Source: Sulfitobacter sp. W027
Lineage (GTDB): Bacteria > Pseudomonadota > Alphaproteobacteria > Rhodobacterales > Rhodobacteraceae
Assembly: GCF_025143985.1 (NCBI RefSeq)
Contig: NZ_CP083564.1
Coordinates: 2,573,001-2,637,000, forward strand
Direction: 5' to 3'
DNA: 64,000 nt
In this document: positions 48,039-62,506 of the stretch, one piece after another
Layout: the number at the start of each line of letters is the position of its first letter
Numbering within the stretch: position 1 is the first letter of the stretch
Notes under the pieces: model-generated
The model's input: the letters and a program-made list of their open reading frames with translations, nothing else
What the model was told of the DNA's origin: nothing
Databases searched by the model: none
Position numbers and translations under genes: made by a program

Positions 48039-50279
48039 TCAATCGCTGCCGCGCACGGCGATCTGGGCGTCTGCGGCGGGGCGGAACTTCAGCTGGATGA
48101 CAAAGATCAACGCCGCAATCGCGATGCCGATCAAGTCAGTCACCAGCCCGCCCGCAATCATGCACAGCGCGCCAAGGATCAGGCCCAACCGGATGAACCA
48201 CGCGGCCCCGCTGCCCGCGAACCATCCCTGCATGCCCGAGGACAGCAGATAGACGCCAAAGATCGCAGTAACCCCCGCACGGATCACCTCGAACCATGTG
48301 CCGTCCATCAGGATTGCGCCGTTGTAGAAGAACATGAAGGGCACGATGAAGGCCGAGATGCCGATCTTGAAGGACGCCACTGAAGTCTCCATCGGGTTGG
48401 CCCCCGATATCCCTGCCGCCGCATAACTGGCCAGCGCCACGGGGGGCGTGATGGCGGAGACGACGGCGAAGTAGAAGACAAAGAAGTGTGCCGTTAGCAG
48501 CGGAATGCCCAGTTGCACCAGCCCCGGCGCCACGACCGACGCCGCCACGGCATAGGCCGCCGTGGTGGGCATGCCCATGCCGAGCAGAATGGCGATACAC
48601 ATGGCAAAGAACAGGGCGAGGAATTGGCTTGCCTCCGCCAGACCCAGCAGCACCGAAGAGAAACGCGCGCCGACGCCTGTCAGGCTGATGACACCCACGA
48701 TGATACCGGCACAGGCACAGACCGCGATGATCTGGATCGACATAATCCCGGCAAGATCAAAGGCTTTGACAATGCTCCGTACCCCCATGCGGAAGGGCGT
48801 GAACCACGACACCACCGCCGCCGCCGCTGTCGCCAGCGTGCCTGCACGGATGATCGAATAGCCCATGAACAGCGCATAGATCAGTATGATGATCGGGATG
48901 AACAGAAACACCCGGCGCATCATGTCGTTGAGCTTGGGCAGCTCTTCAGAACGCATCCCGCGCATGCCCAGCTTGGCCGCTTCGAAATCCACCATGAAGT
49001 AGATCGACACGAAGTAGAGCACCGCCGGGATGATCGCCGCCACAGCGATGTCGGTGTAAGGAATGCCCGTGATCTCGGCCATGATAAATGCACCTGCCCC
49101 CATGATCGGCGGCATGATCTGCCCACCGGTCGAGGCCGCAGCCTCAACCGCGCCTGCGGTACGGGCCGGGTAGCCGACTTTTTTCATCAGCGGGATCGTC
49201 AGTGACCCTGTCGCCACCACATTGCCCGCCGAAGTGCCGTTGATCATGCCCATAAGGCCCGAGGCGAAGATCGCAACCTTTGCAGGCCCCCCGCGCGAAC
49301 GGCCCGCCGCAGCAAAGGCGAAATTGACGAAGTAGTCGCCCACTTTCGACGCCTGAAGGAAGGCAGCGAAGATGATGAACAGGATGATATAGGTCGAGGA
49401 TACCGCCGTGGTTGGCCCAAGAATGCCCGCATCGGTGTAGACTTGGCTAAAGAACCGCGTCCACTGGATGTTGGGCGCATTCAGGAAGCCCGGCAGCATG
49501 TCCCCCACAAAGACATAGATCAGGAAGATGCCTGAGATCACGATCAGCGCCAGCCCCGCCACGCGGCGCGTTAGTTCCATGATCAACGCAGTGCCTGCGA
49601 CAGCGGCGATGGAGATGCCGATTGGCGCGAAAGGCGTGCCCGTCGAGTTGCGCATCAAGGTGCTGTACATGGTGATAAGATAGATCGCCACCGCGACGCC
49701 ACAGACAGACAAAAGCAGGTCCGCAGGGGAGACTTGCCCCCGCTCACGGCCCCGCAGCCAGCCGACAACGATACCAATGGCCGTCGCCGCCACCAGCGGC
49801 AGACCATAGTGGTAAACTTCGAGGTTCTTGAACTCGGGGCTCATGCCGTTCCACTGCACCCCAGAGTTGATCTGACTTGCGATGCCCCAGGCAGTCCAGA
49901 TGGCATAAAGCGCGGGGATCATTGCAGCCCATGCCACGAAATCCAGCGGATGACGGCCCTGCCCTGTGCCCTCATCGACAAATCCCCGCGCGGAATAGAG
50001 CGTGAAACCAAGGATCAGCGCGCCTGCGATGTGCACGATGCGGAAGTTCCATGTCTCCATCGGGAAGGTCGGCAAAAGCGGGATGCGGATGCCGGTCAAC
50101 TCGCCAATCGACATGCCGTTCAACGCGGCCATGTGGAAGAACGCATAGATGGCCGACATGGCCGCGACGACCAGATAGGTGCGCCCGGTGAATATGCGAC
50201 GGTTGCTTTCTACGGGTTCGTCATCAACCCCTTCAGCGACAATCGGGCCTTGAGGGTCGGCGCTATGCTGGTCTGTCAT
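48039..50279 (-). CDS. TRAP transporter fused permease (TAXI type)
   Basis: The 746-residue protein fuses the small (DctQ-like) and large (DctM-like) subunits: about 4-5 helices in residues 25-170, then a long block of helices with GLMGMINGTSAGNVVATGSLTIPLMKK and TGGQIMPPIMGAGAFIMAE, family signatures of the TAXI-type permease. A hydrophobic C-terminal extension follows the core. AGGGAG precedes the ATG. The binding protein gene lies upstream in the same direction, 88 bases away. Confidence 0.92.
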   Translation of the reverse strand: MTDQHSADPQGPIVAEGVDDEPVESNRRIFTGRTYLVVAAMSAIYAFFHMAALNGMSIGELTGIRIPLLPTFPMETWNFRIVHIAGALILGFTLYSARGFVDEGTGQGRHPLDFVAWAAMIPALYAIWTAWGIASQINSGVQWNGMSPEFKNLEVYHYGLPLVAATAIGIVVGWLRGRERGQVSPADLLLSVCGVAVAIYLITMYSTLMRNSTGTPFAPIGISIAAVAGTALIMELTRRVAGLALIVISGIFLIYVFVGDMLPGFLNAPNIQWTRFFSQVYTDAGILGPTTAVSSTYIILFIIFAAFLQASKVGDYFVNFAFAAAGRSRGGPAKVAIFASGLMGMINGTSAGNVVATGSLTIPLMKKVGYPARTAGAVEAAASTGGQIMPPIMGAGAFIMAEITGIPYTDIAVAAIIPAVLYFVSIYFMVDFEAAKLGMRGMRSEELPKLNDMMRRVFLFIPIIILIYALFMGYSIIRAGTLATAAAAVVSWFTPFRMGVRSIVKAFDLAGIMSIQIIAVCACAGIIVGVISLTGVGARFSSVLLGLAEASQFLALFFAMCIAILLGMGMPTTAAYAVAASVVAPGLVQLGIPLLTAHFFVFYFAVVSAITPPVALASYAAAGISGANPMETSVASFKIGISAFIVPFMFFYNGAILMDGTWFEVIRAGVTAIFGVYLLSSGMQGWFAGSGAAWFIRLGLILGALCMIAGGLVTDLIGIAIAALIFVIQLKFRPAADAQIAVRGSD

Positions 50280-50367
50280 GGAAGCTCCCTTTCCCGACGA
50301 TCATGCGGGATGATGGCAAGATGCCGCCCCGATTAGGGACGGCATGCAAGTTTGTCTAGGCGTTAGC

Positions 50368-51348
50368 TTAGTTGCCGTAGATCATGTCGTCAGAAATGTC
50401 GGCGTCTGCGTTCTCTTTGAACCATGCCGCTGCACCGGGGTGCCATTTCAGGACTTTGTTTTTGTCCCAGTTCTCAGGCAGGGTCGACGCCGCCGCTTTG
50501 TGGATGCCTGTCATACGCTCATTGTCAGACATGACCACGTCGACAGCTGCCTTCACGAAGGATTCCGGCAGATCGCAATTGGCAATCGCGAAGTTCCACA
50601 TGGAGACCGACCGCGCGTCTGCTTCCAGCGTGGTGTAGGTGCTGGCTTTGATCGAGAAGTCAGATACCGGGAATTCCTCAAGCAATTTGGCTTGCTCTTC
50701 TTCGGTGAACTCGATGATGTTCACGTCGGTCTGCACTTCCAACTGGCTGACCGCGGGCACAGGCACGCCTGCGGCAAAAGCGATCACGTCCAGCAGACCA
50801 TCCTGCAACTGGCCACCCAGATCGGTCCAACCGCCGTTGCGGCGCTCATATTCCACGCCGAGCGTGTCCATCATGCGCGGGAAATAAGTGTCAGAAGTGG
50901 AGCCTGCCGGGCCAAAGCCGATCTTGGCGCCTGCCGGGATATCGCTGACCTTTTCGATGCCCGAAGATGCCAGAGCGGTGACCGAGAACGGTGTCTGGTA
51001 CATCGGGAACATCGCGCAGGCTTGGGTCATTTCCAGACCGGGCGCGATGGGGTTGGTGCCTGCCAGCGATTCCGCCGCCGGGCCCATTGTGGTCATGCCG
51101 AAGGCCGCTTCGCCGGTGTGGACCAGCGCCATGTTCTGCATCGGGCCGCCGGTGACTTCGCCGCCGCCTGTCAGACCCAGTTCTTTGGCCACAAGGTTCG
51201 CCCAGCCAGAGCCATAGGCGAAATAGGTGCCGCCTTGGCTGGCTGTGCCAACGGTGAAGCTGCTGGGCCAGTCGGATTTATCGACGTCTTGTGCGACGGC
51301 AGCGCCCGCCAGAATAGTGCTTGCGGCGAGGATTGCGGTGAATTTCAT
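50368..51348 (-). CDS. TAXI-family TRAP solute-binding protein
   Basis: The 326-residue protein has a signal peptide (about residues 1-19, ending AAVAQ) and the TAXI core: FTVGTASQGGTYFAYGSGWANLV near residue 30, and GAKIGFGPAGSTSDTY. It binds the substrate in the periplasm for the fused permease; TAXI systems often carry dicarboxylates or amino acids but the ligand is not evident. GGGAGAGAGAC precedes the ATG. Confidence 0.92.
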   Translation of the reverse strand: MKFTAILAASTILAGAAVAQDVDKSDWPSSFTVGTASQGGTYFAYGSGWANLVAKELGLTGGGEVTGGPMQNMALVHTGEAAFGMTTMGPAAESLAGTNPIAPGLEMTQACAMFPMYQTPFSVTALASSGIEKVSDIPAGAKIGFGPAGSTSDTYFPRMMDTLGVEYERRNGGWTDLGGQLQDGLLDVIAFAAGVPVPAVSQLEVQTDVNIIEFTEEEQAKLLEEFPVSDFSIKASTYTTLEADARSVSMWNFAIANCDLPESFVKAAVDVVMSDNERMTGIHKAAASTLPENWDKNKVLKWHPGAAAWFKENADADISDDMIYGN

Positions 51349-51729
51349 GTCTCTCTCCCTTGGTTGATCTTACCGGGCGTCGACATAGGATGCCGCGCTC
51401 AGCTGCTGTGTTCAGCTTGTCTTGCCAGTTAAATGTACTCCAACCCTTGGAAGCAAGGCCGAAAATGCCATAGCCCCCCAGATGGGGAGCAAAGACCCAA
51501 CCTGCGGAAAGAATGGGTCAAAATGTCCCTCGTCTTTCTCAATGAGCGGAGTTGCGAAGAACCGTGATCACCCAACTGCCCCGGTTGCACAGCCATAATA
51601 GACGAAACTGGGCGACCGACCTGCGTCGTTCGCCCTATATTCTCTCTGTCACTGCGTCATTATTCAGGGCCACGGATCTTGGTCGCCTATCTTGGCAACC
51701 CGCGCAACCATATCAAAGCTGCAGCGCCA
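51349..51729. other. 381-base intergenic region
   Basis: This stretch holds the promoter for the leftward TAXI gene and the 3' end of the polysaccharide operon. I see no gene. A hairpin with a long, once-mismatched stem lies at 51610-51635. A second GC-rich inverted repeat, CCCC-AGAT-GGGG, lies near 51476-51487. The rest shows no recognisable element. Confidence 0.5.
51610..51635 (-). terminator. Hairpin after the polysaccharide operon
   Basis: GGGCGA-C-CGAC at 51610-51620 pairs with GTCG-T-TCGCCC at 51625-51635, one C-T mismatch, loop CTGC. It lies about 95 bases after the stop of the last leftward gene. There is no T-run, so it may be a weak terminator or a processing structure. Confidence 0.4.
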
Positions 51730-52443
51730 TCAAAAACTATGCCAAACCCCGACTTTCAGCTTGGTCACCGATTCAGTGAATTCATGCGAGACACCGAACT
51801 CAAGTAAGCTGTTTTCGGCCACTTTGACCACATGCGACGGCGCGAAGGCCAACGTTTCATCACCGTCAGAGGGGGCTGCGAACTCCAGCTTGAAAATCGA
51901 AAGGTTTCCATTCGAGTGGTTGATGCCAAAGCTGCTGTCGATCTTGCCCAGCCCGCCGCCGTCTTCGTAAATCGCATAGGTGCTCTCAACGCCCAGCCAG
52001 CCCTTGCCCCAAGCCCCCTCCACGGGGCGGCCCCATGAGACGCCGGGCCGAAGGACGGCCACCGCACCGCCATCCCGCTCGGTCCAGCCGACGCCCAGTT
52101 CGGCAGCAAAGACATCATCGCCACCCGACAATTCCAGCGGGTAGCGCAGGAAGGCGATGGCGTTGACCTGACCGGCACGCTGGCTCTTGCCGATGTCCAG
52201 TCCGAACGTCAGTTTTTCGGTCAGACCGTATTCATAATAGAACGAAGCGAAATCGCCAAAGTCAGGGCCGTCAACGGTGGATTCATATGAAAGCGTGACG
52301 AAGCTTTTGTCTTCACCGCGCGGCCAAGCAGCCGATGCCGCCTCCCCCGACCATACGGTCAGTGCCGCAAGGGCTGCAAGGAAACAAAGACCGGACCGCA
52401 TGCGCTGATAGGATGCTGATGGGATATTCGCTGTTCTAGGCAT
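51730..52443 (-). CDS. Predicted outer-membrane beta-barrel protein, last gene of the polysaccharide operon
   Basis: The 237-residue product has a signal peptide (about residues 15-38, ending GEAASAA; the ATG at 52401 may be the true start) and then alternating short beta strands: KSFVTLSYESTV, FASFYYEYGLTEKLTFGLDIG, VFAAELGVGWTE, AVAVLRPGVSWG, KGWLGVESTYAIYE. It ends in KVGVWHSF, and a terminal phenylalanine is typical of outer-membrane barrels. Its place 47 bases after the CheY-like gene suggests it is the outer-membrane part of this polysaccharide system. No polysaccharide-export family match can be claimed. Confidence 0.55.
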   Translation of the reverse strand: MPRTANIPSASYQRMRSGLCFLAALAALTVWSGEAASAAWPRGEDKSFVTLSYESTVDGPDFGDFASFYYEYGLTEKLTFGLDIGKSQRAGQVNAIAFLRYPLELSGGDDVFAAELGVGWTERDGGAVAVLRPGVSWGRPVEGAWGKGWLGVESTYAIYEDGGGLGKIDSSFGINHSNGNLSIFKLEFAAPSDGDETLAFAPSHVVKVAENSLLEFGVSHEFTESVTKLKVGVWHSF

Positions 52444-52490
52444 GATGGATTCCGCGTGTTCAAAGCCGCCAGGGGCTGAGCCGTGAGGTG

Positions 52491-52850
52491 TCAGACGATC
52501 GACCTGATAAAATCCGCCAGTTTGAGCGGTTTAAACGGCTTGTGCAGAATATGATCCGCGCCAAGGGCGCGAAACGTCTTTTCTGCTTCAGCCGAGGTCT
52601 TGGCCGTGCACATGACGATCTTTGTGTCGTCCAGATCCGCATTGGCCCGCGCGCAGCGCAGTACCTCCATCCCGTCAGGGGGCGGCATCATCACATCCAG
52701 CATGATCACGTCGAAGGATTGGGTTTCCATCGCGGCAATCGCGTCAAATCCGCTTGCGGCGAAGGTAGGCTCAATGTCTTCTTCGGTCATAATCGCAAAC
52801 TCGATCAGTTCGCGGATGTCATCCTCGTCATCGACGAATAGCACCTTCAT
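52491..52850 (-). CDS. CheY-like single-domain response regulator
   Basis: The 119-residue protein is a bare receiver: acidic pocket D7-D8, phosphoacceptor D52 in IMLDVMMPPPDG, T82 in IVMCTAK and K104 in ILHKPFKPL. All active-site residues are present. It overlaps the sensor kinase gene by 4 bases and follows it. With no output domain it may be an intermediate in the phosphorelay, feeding the HPt protein at the operon start, or act on a protein target directly. Confidence 0.9.
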   Translation of the reverse strand: MKVLFVDDEDDIRELIEFAIMTEEDIEPTFAASGFDAIAAMETQSFDVIMLDVMMPPPDGMEVLRCARANADLDDTKIVMCTAKTSAEAEKTFRALGADHILHKPFKPLKLADFIRSIV

Positions 52851-54850
52851 GCGGGCGCTCCCTGCTTAGTCGCAGCGACATCGTCACGGGCAAACCGCAC
52901 AGAGAATGTGGTGCCGGGGTTTTCGTCACCGTCTTCTTCAGAGCGTGTCTTAAAGCTTATTTCGCCGTCTTGTCGCAACACCAACTCCCGCGTGATGGCC
53001 AGCCCAAGCCCCGTGCCGTTCGCTTGGTTATCGCGAGAGTGCACAGGGTCGGCAAACCTTTTGAACATACGATCATGCGCGGACTTAGGAATGCCCGGCC
53101 CCGCATCGCAGACATAGAACGTGACAATATCATCGTCCACCTCAGCGCCGATTTTTACGGTGCCGCCGCGCGGCGTGTATTTCACCGCGTTGGAGATCAG
53201 GTTTGAAAAAATCTGCTGCATCCGGACCGTATCGACCTGAACATAGGCCTGCTCTGACGCCTTGGGAGCGGTATGGATATCAAGTTGCACATCGCGGTTA
53301 ACCCCATACCCGGTGTTGGCTGCAATCGCTTCGGACAATACGTCTGAGACCGAGACCCTTTCGGTCTGGATGCTGAGTTGCTGCTGGTCGATTGCCTGAA
53401 GGGTCAGGATGTCATTGACCAATACCAGCAGGCGATCCGCATTGCGTGTGGCCATCGACAAAAGCTTGCTCGCGTTCGTTGGCATGTCTTCGCCAAACCG
53501 CTCGTGCAGAATCTCAAGCGACCCGGCCAGTGACGTCAGCGGCGTGCGCAGCTCATGGTTTACCGAAGTTACGAAAGCCGTTCGCGCTGCCACCAGACGC
53601 TCCTCGGCAGAGATGTCTTGAAGCACGTTATAGGCGATGTAGTCCCCATGCAGGTGCATTTTCATCACCCGGCATTGAACGGCCACGCTTTCATTTTCGG
53701 CGTTGCGGACATGAATACGGTGCACGGCCACGTCTTCATCCATTTGCGAGAAAGGCGGGACGATGCTGCGCAGTTGCTCGACGGCCTGGATGTCTGACGA
53801 AACCCCCATAAGCTCCCGCGCCTTGCGGTTGGACCGGTGCAGCTTGTTGTTATCGTTATAGACAATCAGCCCGTCGCCAACATTTTCAAAGATGGCGTCA
53901 AATTCGCTCTGTGCCACGCGGATGCGCTCGCGGTCGCGCTCGGAATTGCGCAGGGCCTGCGCCAATTTGGTTGACTGCCGTCTGGCCCGGATTGCCGCGT
54001 TGATCACCGTCAGGAACAGGACCGTCGCAAGACCGGCAAAGACCAAGGTGCGTTGCCAATAGCCGCGCATGACCGCCGCTTTGCTGCGTGTCACGTCGAT
54101 ATAAAGGTCAAGCGCCGGAAGCTCTTGGCGCGCACGGAACACGGGCGTATCAGGGTCGCGTATCTCCCCCCCGGAGGTAAAGGCGCGTTCCCCATTAGAG
54201 GTCACAACCTCAACATACATGTTCTGCTGCAGCCCATCTGCTGCGAGCAGTTGAGAGTAGTAATCCTCACCCAAAGAGGATGCCAAAACCCCCCGCACCT
54301 TTCCGTCTATGCCGATCAGCGGCCATGCAATCGGCGTTAGCCGTCGGCCCGTCGCCCGCGACACGATGGGCACCCCGACCGTGTATTCATCAACGCCAAG
54401 ACCACTTGCGGCCTGAAAATAGGCGCGGTCGCCAAGGTATTGCCCCAAAAGAGGTTCCGCTGTGGCCCAAAGGACAACGCCGTCCGCACCGATAAGAACA
54501 AGAGCATCGACCTGTTTGATCGACTCCACTGCAGAGTTCATCAGCGCGCCATATTGCGCTTCGAATTGATCGGGATCATTTAAAAGCGCCGTCGACAATT
54601 CATCAATCAGCCCCCACATGCGAACATTTGCAACCGAAAGGGAGGCATCGACCGCCTGCTCATAGAGTTCGGCGAAATGCTCAAGCTCCACTTCCGCGCG
54701 GGTCGTGGCGCGGTTGTAGTCAGACCATGTGAGGAATGCGAGCCCGACGAAATACATCACAACGACAGTCGTGATCAGACCCCAGAAAAGAGTTTGCGAG
54801 CGGGATGACGTTTCCGCCTCGCCTTTGTTGGTGGGCTCAGTGCTGACCAT
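52847..54850 (-). CDS. Sensor histidine kinase (dCACHE-like, PAS, HisKA, HATPase)
   Basis: The 667-residue kinase has membrane helices at about 22-43 and 266-288 flanking a periplasmic sensor with a dCACHE-like pattern (LLGQYLGDRAYFQAASGLG and IDGKVRGVLASSLGEDYY). A PAS region follows (about 313-415), then HisKA with H432 in SVNHELRTPLTSLAG, and HATPase with N554 (NLISNAVKY), DAGPGIP (582-588) and GTGLGLA (612-618). No receiver domain is fused. All catalytic motifs are intact. It overlaps the upstream response regulator by 14 bases. Confidence 0.92.
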   Translation of the reverse strand: MVSTEPTNKGEAETSSRSQTLFWGLITTVVVMYFVGLAFLTWSDYNRATTRAEVELEHFAELYEQAVDASLSVANVRMWGLIDELSTALLNDPDQFEAQYGALMNSAVESIKQVDALVLIGADGVVLWATAEPLLGQYLGDRAYFQAASGLGVDEYTVGVPIVSRATGRRLTPIAWPLIGIDGKVRGVLASSLGEDYYSQLLAADGLQQNMYVEVVTSNGERAFTSGGEIRDPDTPVFRARQELPALDLYIDVTRSKAAVMRGYWQRTLVFAGLATVLFLTVINAAIRARRQSTKLAQALRNSERDRERIRVAQSEFDAIFENVGDGLIVYNDNNKLHRSNRKARELMGVSSDIQAVEQLRSIVPPFSQMDEDVAVHRIHVRNAENESVAVQCRVMKMHLHGDYIAYNVLQDISAEERLVAARTAFVTSVNHELRTPLTSLAGSLEILHERFGEDMPTNASKLLSMATRNADRLLVLVNDILTLQAIDQQQLSIQTERVSVSDVLSEAIAANTGYGVNRDVQLDIHTAPKASEQAYVQVDTVRMQQIFSNLISNAVKYTPRGGTVKIGAEVDDDIVTFYVCDAGPGIPKSAHDRMFKRFADPVHSRDNQANGTGLGLAITRELVLRQDGEISFKTRSEEDGDENPGTTFSVRFARDDVAATKQGAPA

Positions 54851-55802
54851 TCTCTGGTGGATATCCTATCTCATCAGCGGCAAAGCAAATCGTGCCCGCC
54901 GCGCCTGTTTTTCCCGCAGTCTCTACGCCCTGAATGCCCTGCGCGAGTGACGCAGCAACGGCCCCATCGGAGGGCGGAACGATACAGGCACTGACGCTCA
55001 ACGGGCGGGATGTCCAGCCCTCTTTCACGCTGGCAGAGGCCTCTGCCACAGCAGAGATAAACTGCCGGGCGCGAGCTTCAAGTTGCGCGCGATCCGCATG
55101 GAGCGAGCCATAGACGAAAAGATCATCCTCCCAATGGGCCAGACTGTCCCGCGCGGGAATGTCGACCTTGCCAAACAGCCCCGCCACAAGGCGCTGAAGC
55201 TCTTGCCGCTGCGTTCCTGTGGCATCCAACTGTTCCCGGTCCCCGTCTATTTTAAAGACGATCAGCCCTAGGTCTTTTTGCATTGCAGACGATAGTGACA
55301 TGAGACTGCCTTGGAACCCGGCCTTGCTGCCGAAAAGGCTGGGCACGGTCGCTTCGGAGAAGGCCTGCACCGCGCGGCGGCGGATGCCGCGGCTCTCACC
55401 CGAGCGGCGGCGGTCCAGCTCAGACTTCAGGCGCAGGCAACTGCGCATACGGGCCTGAAGCTCAATCCGGTTAAATGGTTTGGTGACATAGTCATTGGCC
55501 CCCGCAAGAAAGGCCTCAGAAAGCGATCCCATATCTGTCCGGCTGGTCAGCATAATGATCGGCACATCGCTCCATTTTTCCAAAGCGCGGATACGGGCGC
55601 AAAGTTCGATACCATCGATATCGGGCATCATTATGTCCATCAGGATCAAATCGGCGGTGGCCTCATCGCTTTCAATGGCGCTGAGCGCTGCACGTGGATC
55701 GATAAAGCTAACAACGTCTTCAAACCCAAGGTCCGAAAGCGTCGCGTTAATGAAGTCCTGCGCAATGTCTGAATCGTCAACTGCAATAATTCGTTGGCTC
55801 AT
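54837..55802 (-). CDS. Response regulator with degenerate GGDEF-like output domain
   Basis: The product has 321 residues. The receiver (1-120) is complete: D9-D10, D56 in ILMDIMMPDIDG, T86, K108 in YVTKPFNR. After a basic linker (SELDRRRSGESRGIRRRAV) the C-terminal part (about 170-310) follows the order of secondary structure of a diguanylate cyclase, with LGLIVFKIDGDREQL in the first strand and HWEDDLFVYG where GGDEF would be. The catalytic GGDEF and the metal-binding residues are not preserved, so it should not make c-di-GMP. It may act by protein contact. Confidence 0.75.
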   Translation of the reverse strand: MSQRIIAVDDSDIAQDFINATLSDLGFEDVVSFIDPRAALSAIESDEATADLILMDIMMPDIDGIELCARIRALEKWSDVPIIMLTSRTDMGSLSEAFLAGANDYVTKPFNRIELQARMRSCLRLKSELDRRRSGESRGIRRRAVQAFSEATVPSLFGSKAGFQGSLMSLSSAMQKDLGLIVFKIDGDREQLDATGTQRQELQRLVAGLFGKVDIPARDSLAHWEDDLFVYGSLHADRAQLEARARQFISAVAEASASVKEGWTSRPLSVSACIVPPSDGAVAASLAQGIQGVETAGKTGAAGTICFAADEIGYPPENGQH

Positions 55803-55806
55803 GGTT

Positions 55807-57222
55807 TTAGTCCCACTCGTTCATTCTTTCAAAAACGCGCCATTGGCTGTTTTGAAAAACCTCTTCATACCCCGCCAGCTGCAATTTCCTCAGCTGCGGG
55901 AACCTGCGCAGAATTCTGTCTGCTGTGGCCTGCCCCTCCGCCTGCCGCGGCACCACAATGTACCTTGTCCGCGGCACGCCCCCCTCAAGCGCCCAGTCGT
56001 AGGCTGGCTCTCCGGCGATCACTAGCCGGTCAATAGTACCAAAACCGATAACGATTTCGGGATTTCTTTCAACGTCTACCATAATTTCAGACTTGTCGCG
56101 CAAGAATGAAACGACCTCATGTGTCGGTTGGGACGCTGCGTTCTGAATTCCGACCATCGCATTGGCCCAAGCGCGGGTTTCGTCATGCGCCACATGGCGC
56201 ATCACTGTGATCGAGGTCAGCAGCGACAAAGACAACAAAGCGATGGCAATCGGCTCACGCAGTGGCAGGTTTGGCCAAAAGCGGATCGCCGCGACCAAGA
56301 CCCCAAGCATGGGCGCAAGCGCCATGGCCGGATCCCCTTCGACATGGAAAAACGTGTTGAGCGTGTAACCGCCCAGCACCGCGCCCACAGCGGCCAGCAG
56401 TGGCATGAACAGGCGCGGGATCAAGATGTTGCGCAAGATTGCGACAAACGCCGCAGGCCCAAGCCCCAGCAGGATGACCAGATGCTCGCGCAGGGTAAGC
56501 GGTGTCGCCGTTTCAGACAAAAGCGGGACAAGGCGGCTGTCGAATATCATACTGACAAACATCAGCGACCCCACGGCGGCAAGCACGGGGTAGAACATCG
56601 CCACAAGATACCCTGTAGAAGAGGCCGCGATCATGCTTGGCCGCGCCGCCACGATCATAAAGGGCATCGCACCAAGGCAAAGCATCAGTCCGAAACTGTC
56701 CGACAAGGCCACCACCAACAGCCCCACCGCGACCTTCATCATGTCAGGCGCGTTGCCGGTCAGCCGCAAATTGACGATCCCGCGCGCAAACAACCATGTG
56801 CCCAAGATGCAAAACATTGTTTCCGGCCCATCGGCCAAGGCGCGCAAAAAGAAGGGGTTCGGTGCTAAAAGCAGCACCACAACCGCCGAGGTGAGGCCCG
56901 AAAACTGGCCCGTATCCCTTAGGTTCAGAAACCACAGGACCAGCAGCCCCGCGCCCACCAGAGCAGACAGCACGAAGGGCACCGGCACCTGTGTATCGGG
57001 CAAGATAGCCTGCCCCAAGAGGGACAGCGCATAGGGCACGGGCGGATAGAAGGCATCGGTGGCCTTGAACTGCGCCGGGCCTTCAATCTGCACGATGGAC
57101 TTGGCCCATAGGTCCGTCACATCCACAGAGATGAAACCATTCGCTTCGGTCCAGCCAAGGCTCAGCAACAGCACAAGCGCGAGCGCGACAAAGCCAAAGG
57201 ACCAAGAAGCGGTGCGGATCAT
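55807..57222 (-). CDS. Polytopic GT-C-like membrane protein
   Basis: The 471-residue protein has about nine to ten membrane helices over residues 10-360, then a soluble C-terminal domain. The N-terminal loop (SVDVTDLWAKSIVQIEGPAQF ... FYPPVPYALSLL) resembles lipid-linked sugar transferases of the GT-C/PMT type, though the catalytic acidic motif is not secure. The C-terminal part (about 375-471) is cytoplasmic or periplasmic. It overlaps the glycosyltransferase gene by 4 bases and precedes the response regulator by 4. It could add a decoration to the polymer or be a membrane partner of the synthase. Confidence 0.6.
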   Translation of the reverse strand: MIRTASWSFGFVALALVLLLSLGWTEANGFISVDVTDLWAKSIVQIEGPAQFKATDAFYPPVPYALSLLGQAILPDTQVPVPFVLSALVGAGLLVLWFLNLRDTGQFSGLTSAVVVLLLAPNPFFLRALADGPETMFCILGTWLFARGIVNLRLTGNAPDMMKVAVGLLVVALSDSFGLMLCLGAMPFMIVAARPSMIAASSTGYLVAMFYPVLAAVGSLMFVSMIFDSRLVPLLSETATPLTLREHLVILLGLGPAAFVAILRNILIPRLFMPLLAAVGAVLGGYTLNTFFHVEGDPAMALAPMLGVLVAAIRFWPNLPLREPIAIALLSLSLLTSITVMRHVAHDETRAWANAMVGIQNAASQPTHEVVSFLRDKSEIMVDVERNPEIVIGFGTIDRLVIAGEPAYDWALEGGVPRTRYIVVPRQAEGQATADRILRRFPQLRKLQLAGYEEVFQNSQWRVFERMNEWD

Positions 57223-59111
57223 TGTGCAGCCTCTGTCGCTTCGGCGCTGGCTTCGGCGACCTCATTGGCGGTGTGTTTGGACAGGCCGTGCTGCGTCTTC
57301 TCCCAGTAGAAAGGATTAAAGATCAGCTGCGACAGCGCCTTGTAGGAGGCCACGGTCATCAGTACCCAATACCCCACCACGGTGATCCCCCAAGGGGCCA
57401 GATCGGTCCACCTGCGCCGGAAGGGCGCGACCATCGTGAGGTAGATCAACAGCCCGTTGCCCGCCAAGAGGTTCACCAGCGAAAGATACAGCACCGGCAG
57501 CGGAAAATAGGGGGTGATCACCTCGGTCCCGAAGATCAGCCAAATGGCAAAGATCGACCAGAACACCGGGTTCAACAGGCCCGACAGCACCGTGCCCCCG
57601 ATGAAGAATATAAAGCCAAAGACCCCTGCGCTGCCGACTGACTGCCACAGATGGATCGGTCTGCGACTGTGGACGAGGAAGGTCTGCATATAGCCTTTGA
57701 TCCAGCGCGAACGCTGGCGCACCCAGTTCGGGATCGAGACATTGGCCTCTTCAAATGTGGTGGAATCGATGACCCCCACGCGGTAGCCCTTCTGCGTGAG
57801 ACGAATGCCCAGATCGGCGTCCTCGGTCACGTTGAAGGGATCCCATGCGTTCAACTCGCGCAGCACGTCCATGCGGAAGTGGTTCGAGGTGCCGCCCAGA
57901 GGGATCGGCACGCCCAATCGCTCCAACCCCGGCAGCATCAGGTCAAACCACAGCGAATAGTCCAAGGTGAACATCCGCGTCAGCCAGTTTTCCCGGGCGT
58001 TGTAGTAGTTTAGGCGGCACTGAATGCAGGCGGTATTGGGTGCGGATTGGTTGAAGGCGGCGATGACCTTTTTCAACTGATCCGGTTCGGGCTTATCCTC
58101 GGCGTCAAAGATCACCAAGAAATCCCCCTGCGCATAGCGCAGCGCAAAGTTACAGGCCTTGGGCTTGGTCTGCGGATGCGAAGCCGGCACGCGGATGATC
58201 TCGAACACGCCTTCAAGGTCCAGCTTGCGGGCCGCGTCGATGGTCTCGTGATCGCCCTCCTCCAGCACGATCTTGATGTCGAGCTTGGCCAGCGGGTAGT
58301 CAAGATTCCGCAGCGCTTGCGCAAGGATCGGCAGCACCTCGGGCTCGCGGAACATCGGCACCAGCACGGTATAGATCGGCAGGTCATCGTCGCGCAGCAG
58401 CGACGCCTCAGCCGCGATGGCCCGCGATGAGGTCTCCTGCGCGGCACCCCCGAGCCAGACCAGCAGCGCCTTGAACAAAAAATTCCCAGTGTAGAAAACC
58501 GTCAAAAAGACGTTCAATACGATGAGCGTCGCCACCGGCGCAAAGGCCAGCCCCAGCAGCACTGCCGAGACTAAGAGATAGAGCACCAAAATCTGCGGCG
58601 GCGTCACCACTTTCTGCGCCGACATATCCGGGTCAAGCTCCGCCAAAGCAAAGACTGCCTCATGAGAGTGTTTCTCGCGGAAGGCGCGCTGCAACGACCA
58701 TGACACATCGAAATGCGAGGCGACGACGATGGTCACGCCCGTGCCATAGACCTCGCGGATATGTAGCAGCGTGCGTGGACCGGGGCGCGAGGTCGCAATC
58801 GTAAGCGTGCCCTCCTCATCCCGGCCAGTCGGCACCGTCATGTAATTATTCATGATGACCGGATCATATTGCCGGATCAGATCATCATCCGCACGGTTCT
58901 CGATCAGATCAACCAGCGTCAGCCCATGATAAAAGGCAATCTCGCGGTAGAGGTCACGCGTTGTCAGCCAGCGACGCGACAGAAGAACCTTTACCAGAGA
59001 GACATTCCAGTCCTCGGCCAGATCCTCCGCCGCGTCGAGCTGTTCAACCGTCAGCGCGCCACGGTCAAGCAGCAAAGAACCGATGGCTTCGCTTTCGGCA
59101 TCCAGCGCCAC
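57219..59111 (-). CDS. Processive family-2 glycosyltransferase with N-terminal MshEN-like domain
   Basis: The start is GTG; the protein has 630 residues. Residues 1-150 resemble a GspE_N/MshEN region (AIGSLLLDRGALTVEQLD, then VSLVKVLLSRRWLTTRDL); the R-L-G and terminal Q that bind c-di-GMP in MshEN are replaced. Helices follow at about 172-222. The catalytic domain has DAED (336-339), TED (429-431) and QRSRW (466-470), the D-D-D-QxxRW set of cellulose- or hyaluronan-type synthases, and then four to five more helices. No PilZ domain is present. It should polymerise a sugar nucleotide and export the chain, with the BcsB-like protein encoded just upstream. Confidence 0.85.
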   Translation of the reverse strand: MALDAESEAIGSLLLDRGALTVEQLDAAEDLAEDWNVSLVKVLLSRRWLTTRDLYREIAFYHGLTLVDLIENRADDDLIRQYDPVIMNNYMTVPTGRDEEGTLTIATSRPGPRTLLHIREVYGTGVTIVVASHFDVSWSLQRAFREKHSHEAVFALAELDPDMSAQKVVTPPQILVLYLLVSAVLLGLAFAPVATLIVLNVFLTVFYTGNFLFKALLVWLGGAAQETSSRAIAAEASLLRDDDLPIYTVLVPMFREPEVLPILAQALRNLDYPLAKLDIKIVLEEGDHETIDAARKLDLEGVFEIIRVPASHPQTKPKACNFALRYAQGDFLVIFDAEDKPEPDQLKKVIAAFNQSAPNTACIQCRLNYYNARENWLTRMFTLDYSLWFDLMLPGLERLGVPIPLGGTSNHFRMDVLRELNAWDPFNVTEDADLGIRLTQKGYRVGVIDSTTFEEANVSIPNWVRQRSRWIKGYMQTFLVHSRRPIHLWQSVGSAGVFGFIFFIGGTVLSGLLNPVFWSIFAIWLIFGTEVITPYFPLPVLYLSLVNLLAGNGLLIYLTMVAPFRRRWTDLAPWGITVVGYWVLMTVASYKALSQLIFNPFYWEKTQHGLSKHTANEVAEASAEATEAAQ

Positions 59112-59117
59112 GGTGGC

Positions 59118-61061
59118 TTACGTCTCGTCCTTGCCGCGACGCGCACGGTAGATGCGCTGAAAGGCGATCAGCACAAACAATGTGATCAGCACCCAAATGC
59201 CCCCGACAATCCACGGACGGTACTTGGACAACATCTGCGCAAAGCTGGTGCGGTCGGGGTAGACGACATCAACCAGCGGGCTGCGGTCTGTGGCGGTGGC
59301 GAGGATCACCCCCTCCTGCCCGATCAAGGCAAGATCGCCCCGGTCCAGCACCATCGGCTGTTGAGGTGTCAATTCCGGCGCAGGGCCGGTACCCGGACGC
59401 AGCCACAGGCCGCGTGTCTCACCGCGGGTGACGATCTGGACCACGCCGAGGCGCGACAGGTCTTCGCCCGAGTAGATCAGCTTATCTTGGGTATCGCGCA
59501 CTTCGATACGGCCCTGATCGAAGGTGATTAGCGGCTCCCCATCGCCGGGGTTTTGGTCAGAGATCACAAAGAAGGGGGCATCCCCCTCAAGCGCATCAAC
59601 AGAGGCGCGCGGCAGGATGGGCGCCCGATCGGGAATGACGCTGCCCGCAACACCCGCCAACCACGGCAAAGTCTGCTCAAAGTCAAGCGAAAGCGCGGGG
59701 TCAAGCACGACCTGAACACCATCGCCAAACGCCTGTCTCAACGCGAAAAAGTCGCGGTCCTGCGGTTCTGCATCTGAAAGCACCAAGGCGCTGCCGGGCA
59801 GGATTTGCGCCGGATAGCCCTGCGGTTTGAAACGGCATTCGCCGCCCGTGGGCTGACGTTGAATAGACACGCGCAACAGATTGTCGCGGCCCAACAGCCC
59901 TTCGGGGACGGAAAAGCTCAACTGCTCGGGCTGGCCACTGGCAAGCGGGCGATTCCCCAAAAGCGAGTCGTTCAGGAAGACCGAGGCCGTCGCCCCCCGC
60001 CCTTCCGGGTCAAGGGCTGCGGCAATCTGCAGACTGACGCCGGAAACGGCCTTGCCCACGGGCAGGTCAGAGGATTGGAATGGGATCAGGAAATCCTGAG
60101 TCGAGACGACGGGCCGCGGGTTCAGATCGGCGTTCAACCCAGACAGCGGCAGACGGTCGTCGACCATGACCGGGCCGCCAGCCACATCTACGATGGTCGC
60201 ATCGTTGTTTGACAGGGCCGACCACTCAGACACCAACTGCCACAAACCCACCTGCGGATCGCTGCCGCGCAGGTTCAACACAGGCAGGCTCGATTGGCCA
60301 TTCACGGTCATCTCGCTCGCCGCCCCAGAGGAGGTCACGTCAAGCTGGATAACCCCTTCGGACCACGCGCCTGCAGCGCCCGCCTCTGCCGCGCCAAAGC
60401 GCAGGCGCCCGGCCTCCGCATCAAACAGCGCCGCGGCGCGGGTCGCTGCGGCCAGCGCAGCCAAGGAATCACTTCCGTTAATCGCAAGACGCGTATCTGC
60501 AGGGCGCAGACCCGCGAAGGCCGCCGAAGTGTCGATCGCCCTTTGATCCAATTGCAACGTCACAGAAGATGCCGCCGCGATTTCAAGAAAATCACCCGAG
60601 GCGCGCTCGTCCACGCAGACCCGATCACTGAAAGCCCCGGAGTAAGTCAGGCCGACCGCGATGAACCCACCCGACACGTCCTCAGGGCGCAGCGGCACCG
60701 GCACACTGAGGCGCCCCGCCCCATCGGGGAGCGCTTGGGAGGACACGGGCCGTCCCGCCACGGAAATCTGCAAATAGCGGTCCACCTCAGCGGTAGAGGC
60801 ATGTCGAAGCTCAAGCTGCAGCGTGCCGGACGTCAAGGCCGCGGCGTCTGGCAGAGGGATATAGATCGTCGCGTTTCCAGAGAGTTGCCGGAAAGAGATG
60901 CCGTTTTGAAAACCCAGCTCTGACAGGTCAAATTTACGGGTAATCTGCCCCTCTTGGACCTGAGGTGCCGCGATAGTTGAACCATCCTCAACCGCAGTCG
61001 TTTGGGCGTGAACTTGAAACGGCAGCAAGGCCGCGAACAATCCAATTGCGGGATACTTCAT
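59118..61061 (-). CDS. BcsB-like periplasmic subunit of the polysaccharide synthase
   Basis: The 647-residue protein has a signal peptide (about residues 1-19), a large periplasmic region of carbohydrate-binding and beta-rich blocks (FDLSELGFQNGISFRQLSGNATIYIPLPD; LQLELRHASTAEVDRYLQISVAGRPV), and a single membrane helix near the C-terminus (about 612-632). That layout is BcsB, the guiding subunit of cellulose synthase. Identity with true BcsB looks low. It lies directly upstream of the glycosyltransferase (6 bases), matching the BcsA-BcsB pair, but there are no BcsC, BcsZ or PilZ-bearing partners here. Confidence 0.75.
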   Translation of the reverse strand: MKYPAIGLFAALLPFQVHAQTTAVEDGSTIAAPQVQEGQITRKFDLSELGFQNGISFRQLSGNATIYIPLPDAAALTSGTLQLELRHASTAEVDRYLQISVAGRPVSSQALPDGAGRLSVPVPLRPEDVSGGFIAVGLTYSGAFSDRVCVDERASGDFLEIAAASSVTLQLDQRAIDTSAAFAGLRPADTRLAINGSDSLAALAAATRAAALFDAEAGRLRFGAAEAGAAGAWSEGVIQLDVTSSGAASEMTVNGQSSLPVLNLRGSDPQVGLWQLVSEWSALSNNDATIVDVAGGPVMVDDRLPLSGLNADLNPRPVVSTQDFLIPFQSSDLPVGKAVSGVSLQIAAALDPEGRGATASVFLNDSLLGNRPLASGQPEQLSFSVPEGLLGRDNLLRVSIQRQPTGGECRFKPQGYPAQILPGSALVLSDAEPQDRDFFALRQAFGDGVQVVLDPALSLDFEQTLPWLAGVAGSVIPDRAPILPRASVDALEGDAPFFVISDQNPGDGEPLITFDQGRIEVRDTQDKLIYSGEDLSRLGVVQIVTRGETRGLWLRPGTGPAPELTPQQPMVLDRGDLALIGQEGVILATATDRSPLVDVVYPDRTSFAQMLSKYRPWIVGGIWVLITLFVLIAFQRIYRARRGKDET

Positions 61062-61073
61062 GAAGAGGCTTTC

Positions 61074-61409
61074 TTAGATTTTTTCAACGACGCCATTGGC
61101 ATCGGCTAGGGCTGCTTCAATGATACGAACATCATCCACTGACAAGGTCGAAGACCCATTGTCCGCATCTTCCGCGACGCGCAGCCCTTTGCGCAGACAG
61201 TCCTCAACCTCGGTGTATTCCAGCATCGCGGCGTTTCCGGCCAGATCGTGCATCATCCGGTGGATCTTCCGCGCCTTCGTCTCGCGCGGGTCAGCTGCTT
61301 CTGTCTCGTGCAGCGCGTCAGAGACGGCCTGCAACCGCGCCGGCAGCCCCTCGATAAAGCGCTTTCGCGTTGCCGCAACACGTTGTTCATATGTCTCGGT
61401 AGGTGCCAC
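61074..61409 (-). CDS. HPt (histidine phosphotransfer) protein
   Basis: The product has 111 residues and starts with GTG preceded by AAGGAC. It is all helical with the HPt motif RKIHRMMHDLAGNAAMLEY, where H54 would be the phosphate-accepting histidine. It is the first gene of the leftward operon. Because the kinase has no fused receiver, this HPt probably takes phosphate from the stand-alone CheY-like protein and passes it to the second response regulator. Confidence 0.75.
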   Translation of the reverse strand: MAPTETYEQRVAATRKRFIEGLPARLQAVSDALHETEAADPRETKARKIHRMMHDLAGNAAMLEYTEVEDCLRKGLRVAEDADNGSSTLSVDDVRIIEAALADANGVVEKI

Positions 61410-61572
61410 AGATTGTCCTTCGTATCAGCCCGCAAAGGAGCAAAAATAGCCAATTTTAGTTAATGTTCGAAACTTGGCAGAATTATGGCGCGGCACTCCT
61501 CTTCTTGGGATTTCCAGCGAAAACGAGTAGATTCTCGCCGATCCAACTTTGGCAGCCCCGCCCTGTGGGAGC
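61410..61572 (-). promoter_or_regulatory. Promoter region of the polysaccharide-phosphorelay operon
   Basis: This 163-base gap is the only sizeable one upstream of the eight-gene leftward operon. It is AT-rich in 61440-61490. I see no clear consensus promoter. AAGGAC near 61415-61420 on the minus strand is the ribosome-binding site for the HPt gene. Confidence 0.4.
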
Positions 61573-62370
61573 TTAAAGCAGATGTTTGAACAAGCCAAAC
61601 AGGTCGCGCTGCGAAGAGATGTTCAGCTTGCGGTAAAGATTGCGGCGATGAACCTTGCAAGTCTCGGTGGCGATCTCAAGGGTCTTGGCAGCGGAGCCAT
61701 TGGAATGGCCCTGCAAAACAAGACCCGCGATCTGCGCCTCGCGTGCTGTCAGGGCAAAGTGCAACACGTCCTTTGCGTGATTGCGTATCAAATCGGCCAA
61801 AGGCGGGCGGGTTGCCACCGCCCCATCTTGCTGGACCGGCGCCATCAGGTTGCAATGCTGTGTCAGCAATTCGAGTAACAAAGGCGCATATTTGCGCAGA
61901 AAGCGAAGCTCTGCCCGACGGAAAGGCCCTTGCGCGTCGCGCCTGCTCATCGACAGATGCGCCACCCCTCCCCGCGCCAGTGGCGCCAGCAGCCCAACCT
62001 CATCACAAAGGCCCGATCCCCGGTAATAGTGCAGGTAATACTCGCTGGAAAAGAAGCGGTCCGGCGCGACTTCAGACAGGCGAAACACCCCGCCCTCTTC
62101 AACGCGGTCGCGGTACTGGAAAAACGGGTCAAACGCATAGGTGCTTTCAAGATACTCAGCCAGCGCAGTTGGGCGCAGACGACCGGGCTCTATCCAATGG
62201 TCGAGAAGACCGGGTGGCTGACCGGGGTCGAACCGCATCATGAGAAAAGTGCCAAAGGCGGCCCGCCCGCGAAACAGTGCTTGGTAAATCTCGAAAAAGG
62301 CCGGGGTGCCGACCGCGCGCATTGCGTCGCGGAGCAGGGAAACTTCGCCAGCAGTCAAACTATCGTTCAA
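61573..62370 (-). CDS. LuxR-type transcriptional regulator
   Basis: The 265-residue product has a C-terminal LuxR helix-turn-helix (about 200-262: [42 protein letters not shown]). The N-terminal 195 residues are not recognised as an autoinducer-binding, REC or PAS domain; they contain [18 protein letters not shown] and [13 protein letters not shown]. Proteins of this form are common beside polyamine-type ABC operons in roseobacters. It is divergent from such an operon here and probably controls it; the ligand is unknown. Confidence 0.82.
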
Positions 62371-62506
62371 AAAATACTCACCTTTCGGACAATATGGTCA
62401 AATTTACTACCCCAGTGGGGGTATATATTGTCAGGCGCATTGCCGCAATCATGCGGGTGTGAGCTTGTTTGATCAAATAACGCAGGCCAAACAGACAGGG
62501 GGTTTG
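62371..62506. promoter_or_regulatory. Divergent regulatory region with inverted repeat TACCCC-N4-GGGGTA
   Basis: The gap contains TACCCC at 62409-62414 and GGGGTA at 62419-62424, a perfect inverted repeat with AGTG between, a plausible site for the divergent LuxR-type regulator. AGGGGG at 62497-62502 precedes the ATPase ATG. No clear -10/-35 pair is visible. Confidence 0.45.

Follow-up and report, generated by a model that had tools for sequence, protein, structure and literature searches.

We analyzed a window of 64,000 nucleotides from Sulfitobacter sp. W027 (G000:C1:2573001-2637000, where G000 is the window's own genome). Between positions 51730 and 61409 it contains eight leftward open reading frames (ORFs), confirmed in position and strand by an ORF check, which encode a putative polysaccharide synthase together with the proteins of a phosphorelay. 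In the order of reading the features are as follows.

61074-61409, minus strand: HPt phosphotransfer protein, 111 amino acids, phospho-His54 (codon 61248-61250); Pfam Hpt and aligned His.
59118-61061, minus strand: BcsB-like periplasmic co-synthase subunit, 647 amino acids; Pfam BcsB and homologues in related loci.
57219-59111, minus strand: MshEN-GT2 processive glycosyltransferase (GT), 630 amino acids; Pfam MshEN and GT2 models, active-site residues.
58665-59087, minus strand: MshEN domain of the GT2, residues 9-149; Pfam and alignment.
58929-59087, minus strand: two 24-residue cyclic dimeric GMP (c-di-GMP) motifs of the GT2 (residues 9-61), degenerate by alignment and NCBIfam.
55807-57222, minus strand: membrane protein of predicted GT-C fold (GTC), 471 amino acids, at the XagC/Sfz3 position; AlphaFold and Foldseek.
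54837-55802, minus strand: response regulator (RR), 321 amino acids, with receiver Asp56 and a pseudo-GGDEF domain (EDDLF); Pfam receiver and fold match.
52847-54850, minus strand: membrane histidine kinase (HK), 667 amino acids, with Cache-like sensor, PAS, HisKA and HATPase; Pfam.
52491-52850, minus strand: single-domain CheY-like receiver, 119 amino acids, Asp52; Pfam and aligned Asp.
51730-52443, minus strand: predicted outer-membrane barrel, 237 amino acids, C-terminal Phe; profile match to a family in the corresponding place elsewhere.

The genes are separated by 47, -4, -14, 4, -4, 6 and 12 bases in map order from 51730 to 61409, in agreement with an earlier sequence-only reading that had described gaps of 4-47 and overlaps of 4-14 bases. 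Pfam assigned the HPt protein with 25.6 bits (cut-off 24.6) and the BcsB-like subunit with 32.9 bits (cut-off 21), and also supported the GT2, receiver, HisKA and HATPase domains. The kinase had been read as a dCACHE-like/PAS protein. Its catalytic part is supported by the HisKA and HATPase matches, with an H-box NHELRTPL read from the translation, whereas the sensor regions stay below the Pfam cut-offs (dCache_1 26.8 against 45 bits, PAS_8 17.1 against 21.8 bits). No receiver domain was matched by Pfam in the kinase itself. Within 51300-62400 we counted 3 promoter-like sites (3.2 expected) and 14 terminator-like sites (11.6 +/- 3.4 expected), which gives no evidence of internal promoters or terminators. 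The guanine-cytosine content of the operon is unremarkable (0.591 versus 0.604 for the window).

Synthase-dependent exopolysaccharides are a textbook target of c-di-GMP. The sequence-only reading had argued from the lack of PilZ and of complete GGDEF or EAL domains, and the Pfam scan of the operon likewise matched none of the three. Judged as a BcsA-type enzyme, the synthase has a BcsB partner and the signature residues of a processive GT2, but the scan matched no C-terminal PilZ domain. The DxD-type, TED and QxxRW motifs are conserved in 84 aligned GT2 sequences (paralogue L002 included), except that the Thr of TED is replaced by Ala in three. The argument from PilZ missed, however, that the synthase carries MshEN, another type of c-di-GMP receptor, at its N-terminus (residues 62-149 by Pfam, 38.2 bits, cut-off 23.1); only the degenerate state of the ligands rescues its conclusion.

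According to the excerpted text of Wang et al. (PMC5013675), MshEN is defined by two RLG...Q motifs of 24 residues each. In the alignment the window GT2 carries A9, A32, S38 and Y61 where Arg, Gln, Arg and Gln are expected (0/4 ligands), as well as V40 and R47 in place of two of the four motif glycines. The NCBIfam model for the c-di-GMP motif scored 19.4 bits versus a cut-off of 38. By these alignments the recognizable c-di-GMP sites of the synthase are degenerate, and its residues suggest that c-di-GMP binding was lost. In the clade of Rhodobacterales loci described below, all 17 sequences share Trp35 and Trp48 and have Arg47 in place of the conserved Gly. Taken over its whole length, the domain is more variable than the GT domain (majority fractions of 0.74 and 0.68 versus 0.94).

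We extended the comparison to related loci. A contig scan gave at least 590 matching stretches, 583 of those being relatives, and the best 80 loci were kept; several of their contigs end early. Synthases were scanned for the c-di-GMP motif in three groups at E = 1.1e-9, taken as ~38 bits from single-scan scores. Seven loci were left out beforehand, five for ORF length (L018, L023, L049, L054, L056) and two cut at a contig edge (L050, L052). At approximately this cut-off the motif was found in 0 of 32 synthases from loci with HPt (window included) versus 20 of 42 from HPt-free loci. This split was made independently of the ligand alignment, whereas the HPt-free synthases were divided further, into 19 and 23, with that alignment already seen: 19/19 passed in the Azospirillaceae-type loci together with an eleven-locus clade of beta-, gamma- and zetaproteobacteria and Desulfobulbaceae, and 1/23 among the rest. 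Single scans gave 33.0, 27.4, 36.8, 24.9 and 16.4 bits for synthases from HPt loci and 44.6, 51.6, 58.3 and 115.4 bits for HPt-free ones. The highest of these values belongs to a Mariprofundaceae GT2 (L082:9395-11467), in which the motif was matched in two stretches (115 bits).

The window's genome also encodes a second MshEN-GT2 beside carA (L112:8985-10931, G000:C1:1097068-1098864), with no BcsB among the scanned neighbors. It is probably a widespread c-di-GMP-controlled glycosyltransferase. Since this paralogue passes the motif with 48.7 bits, the ligand loss is specific to the operon's synthase.

The structure of the response regulator was predicted by AlphaFold with a homologue alignment of 44 sequences (pLDDT 88). 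With a pTM of 0.53 the arrangement of its domains is unsure. In the fold search WspR, PleD and DgcR led the list and were matched over the full length, with a whole-chain TM of only ~0.4, which reflects a different placement of the two domains. Most structural matches cover the receiver alone, so that the pseudo-GGDEF fold rests on these few full-length hits. The C-terminal domain had no Pfam match, and neither Pfam nor the fold search matched a DNA-binding domain. Asp56 is kept in 55/55 aligned homologues. The GGDEF motif occurs in 0/55, and on these aligned sequences we rejected the idea that part of the family still works as a diguanylate cyclase. An RxxD I-site is missing from the window protein, which has PARD (P216/D219) five residues before the degenerate A-site. 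The I-site was found in 11 of the 55, namely seven of eight Azospirillaceae-type sequences, Aurantimonas, Amorphus, a metagenome-assembled genome (MAG) of Beijerinckiaceae, and L050. By its residues, the regulator of the window can neither make nor bind c-di-GMP.

HPt, MshEN ligands and I-site were tabulated for 54 loci; L056 had no MshEN sequence, and L050 and L052, which are cut short, were scored as MshEN lost. Among HPt-free loci both sites are kept in 7 and lost in 13, with the I-site alone in 2 and MshEN alone in 1. Among loci with HPt both sites are lost in 29, and 2 keep the I-site with MshEN lost. HPt together with all four ligands in the relaxed sense occurs in 0 of the 54.

A profile search of the ORFs in the best 80 loci found the GT-C-like protein in 79, BcsB in 73, the response regulator in 54 and HPt in 31; the regulator lies just downstream of GT2-GTC in 54/80. 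The order HPt-BcsB-GT2-GTC-RR-HK-CheY on one strand is present in all 17 loci of the Rhodobacterales clade (the window, L003-L014, L037, L057, L063, and L115 from genome G013). Of these, L010 belongs to Sulfitobacter dubius DSM 16472 and L037 to Celeribacter halophilus, both marine bacteria. In L014 the start of the kinase ORF is misplaced, the kinase match itself being present. L116 and L117 have the identical order and were not counted, being taken as the same as L057 and L011. The sequence-only reading had treated the eight genes as one operon and had pointed to synteny in other Rhodobacterales as its touchstone. This holds within the clade, where the order is kept more consistently than chance would give, and a single conserved operon is supported. 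That reading had also named free separation of the HPt and kinase genes from the synthase genes as telling against it. They are fixed together in the clade; outside it kinase and CheY are not, and the barrel gene directly follows the regulator in 31 of the 54 RR loci. Judged by GT2, Sulfitobacter dubius (97%) and a MAG of Sulfitobacter (96%) are the closest among the named genomes. In a family survey GT2 was matched in 181 of 198 genomes, only 4 of them (window's included) at 75% identity or more; the other family matches, among those listed, had 32-44%. The best match in the same-genus genome G055 was 32%, which argues that the operon is accessory.

Kinase, CheY-like receiver, HPt and response regulator are all present with their phospho-acceptor residues, which are invariant where aligned (HPt His in 32/32, CheY Asp in 19/19). 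The full phosphorelay of the sequence-only reading thus stands as a set of modules, and phosphotransfer between them is a prediction from the genes. In the Limimaricola and Roseivivax loci (L012, L057, L063, L116) a second kinase gene lies directly upstream of, or overlaps, the HPt ORF.

The GT-C-like protein was predicted from 36 sequences (pLDDT 89), and Foldseek returned OST/PglB, AftA and ArnT with E-values of 3.6e-5 to 7.8e-4. Sequence identities of the fold matches, for this protein and the regulator, are 9-23%, so these matches speak for folds and not for functions. Both earlier assignments, GT-C-like and degenerate GGDEF-like, are confirmed to this extent, the GT-C one on fold only. 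The proposed outer-membrane barrel had no meaningful match of its own in Pfam or the Protein Data Bank, but a profile comparison links it to a family that occupies the equivalent position elsewhere (hhalign 97.2%, E = 2.9e-11). Six members of that family were scanned, and two of them match the barrel family Phenol_MetA_deg. Of the 50 loci in which the family was located, 31 have it immediately behind the regulator, 10 have it after HK-CheY, and 9 are RR-free; in 13 of 54 RR loci it was not found. The 10 loci with the barrel after HK-CheY, among 41 RR loci with a barrel, all belong to the Rhodobacterales clade. Five loci of this clade (L012, L037, L057, L063 and L115) gave no barrel gene, and L006 ends too early to show one. 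The operon thus looks like an (HPt-)BcsB-GT2-GTC-RR-barrel unit into which HK and CheY have been inserted ahead of the barrel gene. The barrel-family gene of one gammaproteobacterial sfz-like cluster is followed by a CotH-type kinase gene (L066:15231-17072).

On the upstream side of the operon, a LuxR-type gene (61573-62370) was left out as a member, its close homologue adjoining only one related locus (L010). On the other side (window 48039-51348) lie a gene for a DctM-type tripartite ATP-independent periplasmic (TRAP) transporter (746 amino acids) and one for an NMT1-like periplasmic binding protein. Close homologues of these two flank L003, and none were found in the L010 stretch examined.

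In a tree of the GT domain (87 sequences) the clade of the window comprises 19 sequences (97/85), with fifteen of the 80 loci. All 53 sequences with a response regulator fall within one group of 60 (98/96), and the remaining 52 sequences of the RR-type group form a branch that excludes the Azospirillaceae-type clade (97/88). The tree program flags long branches at the root and at the Acetobacteraceae-type clade. The minimum number of changes on the tree is 2 for MshEN, 4 for the I-site, 8 for the regulator and 11 for HPt. We read from the tree a course in which the regulator would have been recruited while the c-di-GMP sites were still recognizable; the sites would then have been lost and HPt gained, and HK-CheY would finally have been inserted in the Rhodobacterales clade. 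In that course the Azospirillaceae-type loci, where the regulator occurs along with sites of the two kinds, would likely be surviving intermediates.

Based on these comparisons we propose that the operon encodes an alphaproteobacterial relative of the xag-like/sfz synthases in which the c-di-GMP switch may have been replaced by a phosphorelay, a reading to which we give an even chance. GT2 and BcsB would polymerize and extrude a glycan, presumably a beta-glycan. The GT-C protein would probably decorate this glycan from the periplasmic face, and its exit would be through the barrel. A periplasmic signal would be sensed by the kinase, and phosphate would pass to the CheY-like receiver, to HPt and finally to Asp56 of the regulator. 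Phosphorylated regulator would then switch the synthase as a protein effector, with the degenerate MshEN domain as the most likely site of action, in a manner comparable to BcsE and PelD but gated by phosphate. According to the excerpted PMC7439463, BcsE is a degenerate REC-GGDEF protein and an example of such a protein working for a synthase system through protein contact. This precedent, the invariant phospho-acceptors and a regulator devoid of enzyme motif and I-site lead us to propose the contact. MshEN is its likeliest place because the fold is kept and Arg47, Trp35 and Trp48 are fixed in the clade. Both this contact and activation rather than inhibition are inferred. It is conceivable, at somewhat below an even chance, that the domain which ancestrally received c-di-GMP became the docking site of a phosphorylated REC-pseudo-GGDEF protein, post-translational control having passed from the second messenger to a phosphorelay within one gene family.

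Several observations weigh against replacement of the c-di-GMP switch. In independent pairs, HPt versus MshEN or I-site reached no significance and gave no support, with too few changes on the tree. Co-variation between MshEN and the regulator, corrected for the GT domain (33 loci of 47 after removal of near-copies), gave no specific signal, and MshEN-GTC scored equally high. The Acetobacteraceae-type clade (11 sequences: L062, L065, L070, L073-L076, L078-L081) has lost the MshEN ligands with neither regulator nor HPt found, so that this loss needs no phosphorelay. L015, a Paracoccaceae locus sister to the Rhodobacterales clade, has only BcsB-GT2-GTC, with regulator and HPt not seen; L021, a Paracoccaceae locus from another part of the tree, carries HPt-BcsB-GT2-GTC-RR but no HK-CheY in that slot, and several sphingomonad loci have the regulator without an adjoining HPt. 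The Azospirillaceae-type sequences (L031 among them) have 4/4 ligands in the relaxed sense and only 1-2/4 in the strict one (Pro or Arg, Gln, Arg at the end).

It is rather unlikely that c-di-GMP still controls the synthase, with the diverged MshEN binding it or another nucleotide non-canonically and the phosphorelay as an extra input. The fold is kept above the Pfam cut-off, the genome encodes three GGDEF proteins, and Tyr61 is the sole ligand position that fits the relaxed motif published in the excerpted PMC5013675. Some HPt loci come near the motif cut-off (33.0 bits, and 36.8 bits for L038, just under 38), and NfrB tolerates single MshEN substitutions (PMC8669469, excerpt), so that sequence alone is no proof of lost binding. 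In the window GT2, however, none of the four Arg/Gln ligands is left and two of four glycines have changed, and at about the motif cut-off none of the 32 synthases from HPt loci passes. That the phosphorelay acts elsewhere, on another complex or through a partner controlling transcription, and that the operon merely co-expresses related genes, we consider unlikely. The contact of regulator and synthase is a proposal that co-variation did not single out, and outside the Rhodobacterales clade the kinase and CheY genes are not tied to the others; yet the position of the regulator just downstream of GT2-GTC in 54/80 loci, its lack of a matched DNA-binding domain and the role of its structural analogues BcsE and PelD in synthase systems (PMC7439463, excerpt) speak against this reading. 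A pseudo-GGDEF regulator that titrates an active diguanylate cyclase from another locus or forms dimers with it, leaving control to local c-di-GMP, would fit its WspR/PleD fold and the three GGDEF proteins of the genome, but a synthase without a canonical c-di-GMP site and a regulator without an I-site make this very improbable. Switching by phosphorylation and not, or not only, by c-di-GMP, as the sequence-only reading had suggested, is strengthened by the degenerate sites; the switching itself is a deduction. The family spans receptor residues from near-canonical to absent along its tree, with phosphorelay genes recruited into the operon, and how an allosteric second-messenger switch comes to be replaced can be tested directly here in non-pathogenic marine bacteria.

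In an open-access literature search that covered parts of papers we did not find this regulatory arrangement described. WspR and PleD are receiver-GGDEF diguanylate cyclases; the regulator shares their domain order and fold but, like its aligned homologues, lacks the GGDEF motif. The excerpts of PMC7439463 describe BcsE and PelD as degenerate REC-GGDEF or GGDEF proteins serving cellulose and Pel synthases. As in these systems, a catalytically dead GGDEF-fold protein is encoded with the synthase, and the Azospirillaceae-type regulators keep an R[IVL]GD I-site comparable to RTGD of BcsE. In contrast to BcsE, the regulators keep the phospho-Asp and that of the window has lost the I-site, which is the reverse situation. 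In E. coli, NfrB is an MshEN glycosyltransferase activated by c-di-GMP (PMC8669469, excerpt). It likewise joins GT2 to MshEN, but the window protein has the reversed domain order, a BcsB-like partner, lost ligands and no cyclase gene in its operon.

The sequence-only reading had not recognized the gene set as a named system, but its polymer half has named relatives. In excerpts of the respective papers a cluster of Ferriphaselus R-1 is described as BcsB with xagBCD-like genes (PMC4643136), its CDS9-12 were later named sfb1-4, and sfz1-6 were described in Zetaproteobacteria such as Mariprofundus (PMC8250860); the likeness of sfz/sfb to Xanthomonas xagBCD is taken from these papers and PMC3609779. 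The cluster of Ferriphaselus sp. R-1 itself (contig JQKP01000001) is L064 of our set. The eleven-locus clade (beta, gamma, zeta and one Desulfobulbaceae) has BcsB-GT2-GTC with no regulator found, and the next gene in ten of the eleven encodes a GH113-type hydrolase, L068 ending within the GTC gene. This gene at the XagD/Sfz4 position was also considered as the source of the regulator and rejected, being a GH113 hydrolase (Pfam in 4 of 10 scanned; ten aligned). GH113 adjoins 31 of 111 loci searched, in some on the opposite strand, and none in the Rhodobacterales clade. The only GH113 gene found in the window's genome is unlinked (L114:8747-9751, G000:C1:1330789-1331631); it is a candidate hydrolase of the operon's polymer. 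The window has its BcsB-like, T2SSE/MshEN-GT2 and GT-C-like genes contiguous and ordered as in sfz/sfb, and its outer-membrane gene takes a place like that of sfz5. It differs by the additional HPt, regulator, kinase and CheY genes, by the lost MshEN ligands and by the missing linked hydrolase (xagD/sfz4, GH113). By gene content and order, the polymer genes are homologous to the sfz/sfb (xag-like) cassette, and because of the missing hydrolase we do not file them as a member. The term MshEN has 0 occurrences in the sfz paper (PMC8250860). For the sfz/sfb-type systems, which are iron-stalk candidates, the comparison predicts a c-di-GMP input via MshEN and a barrel exporter.

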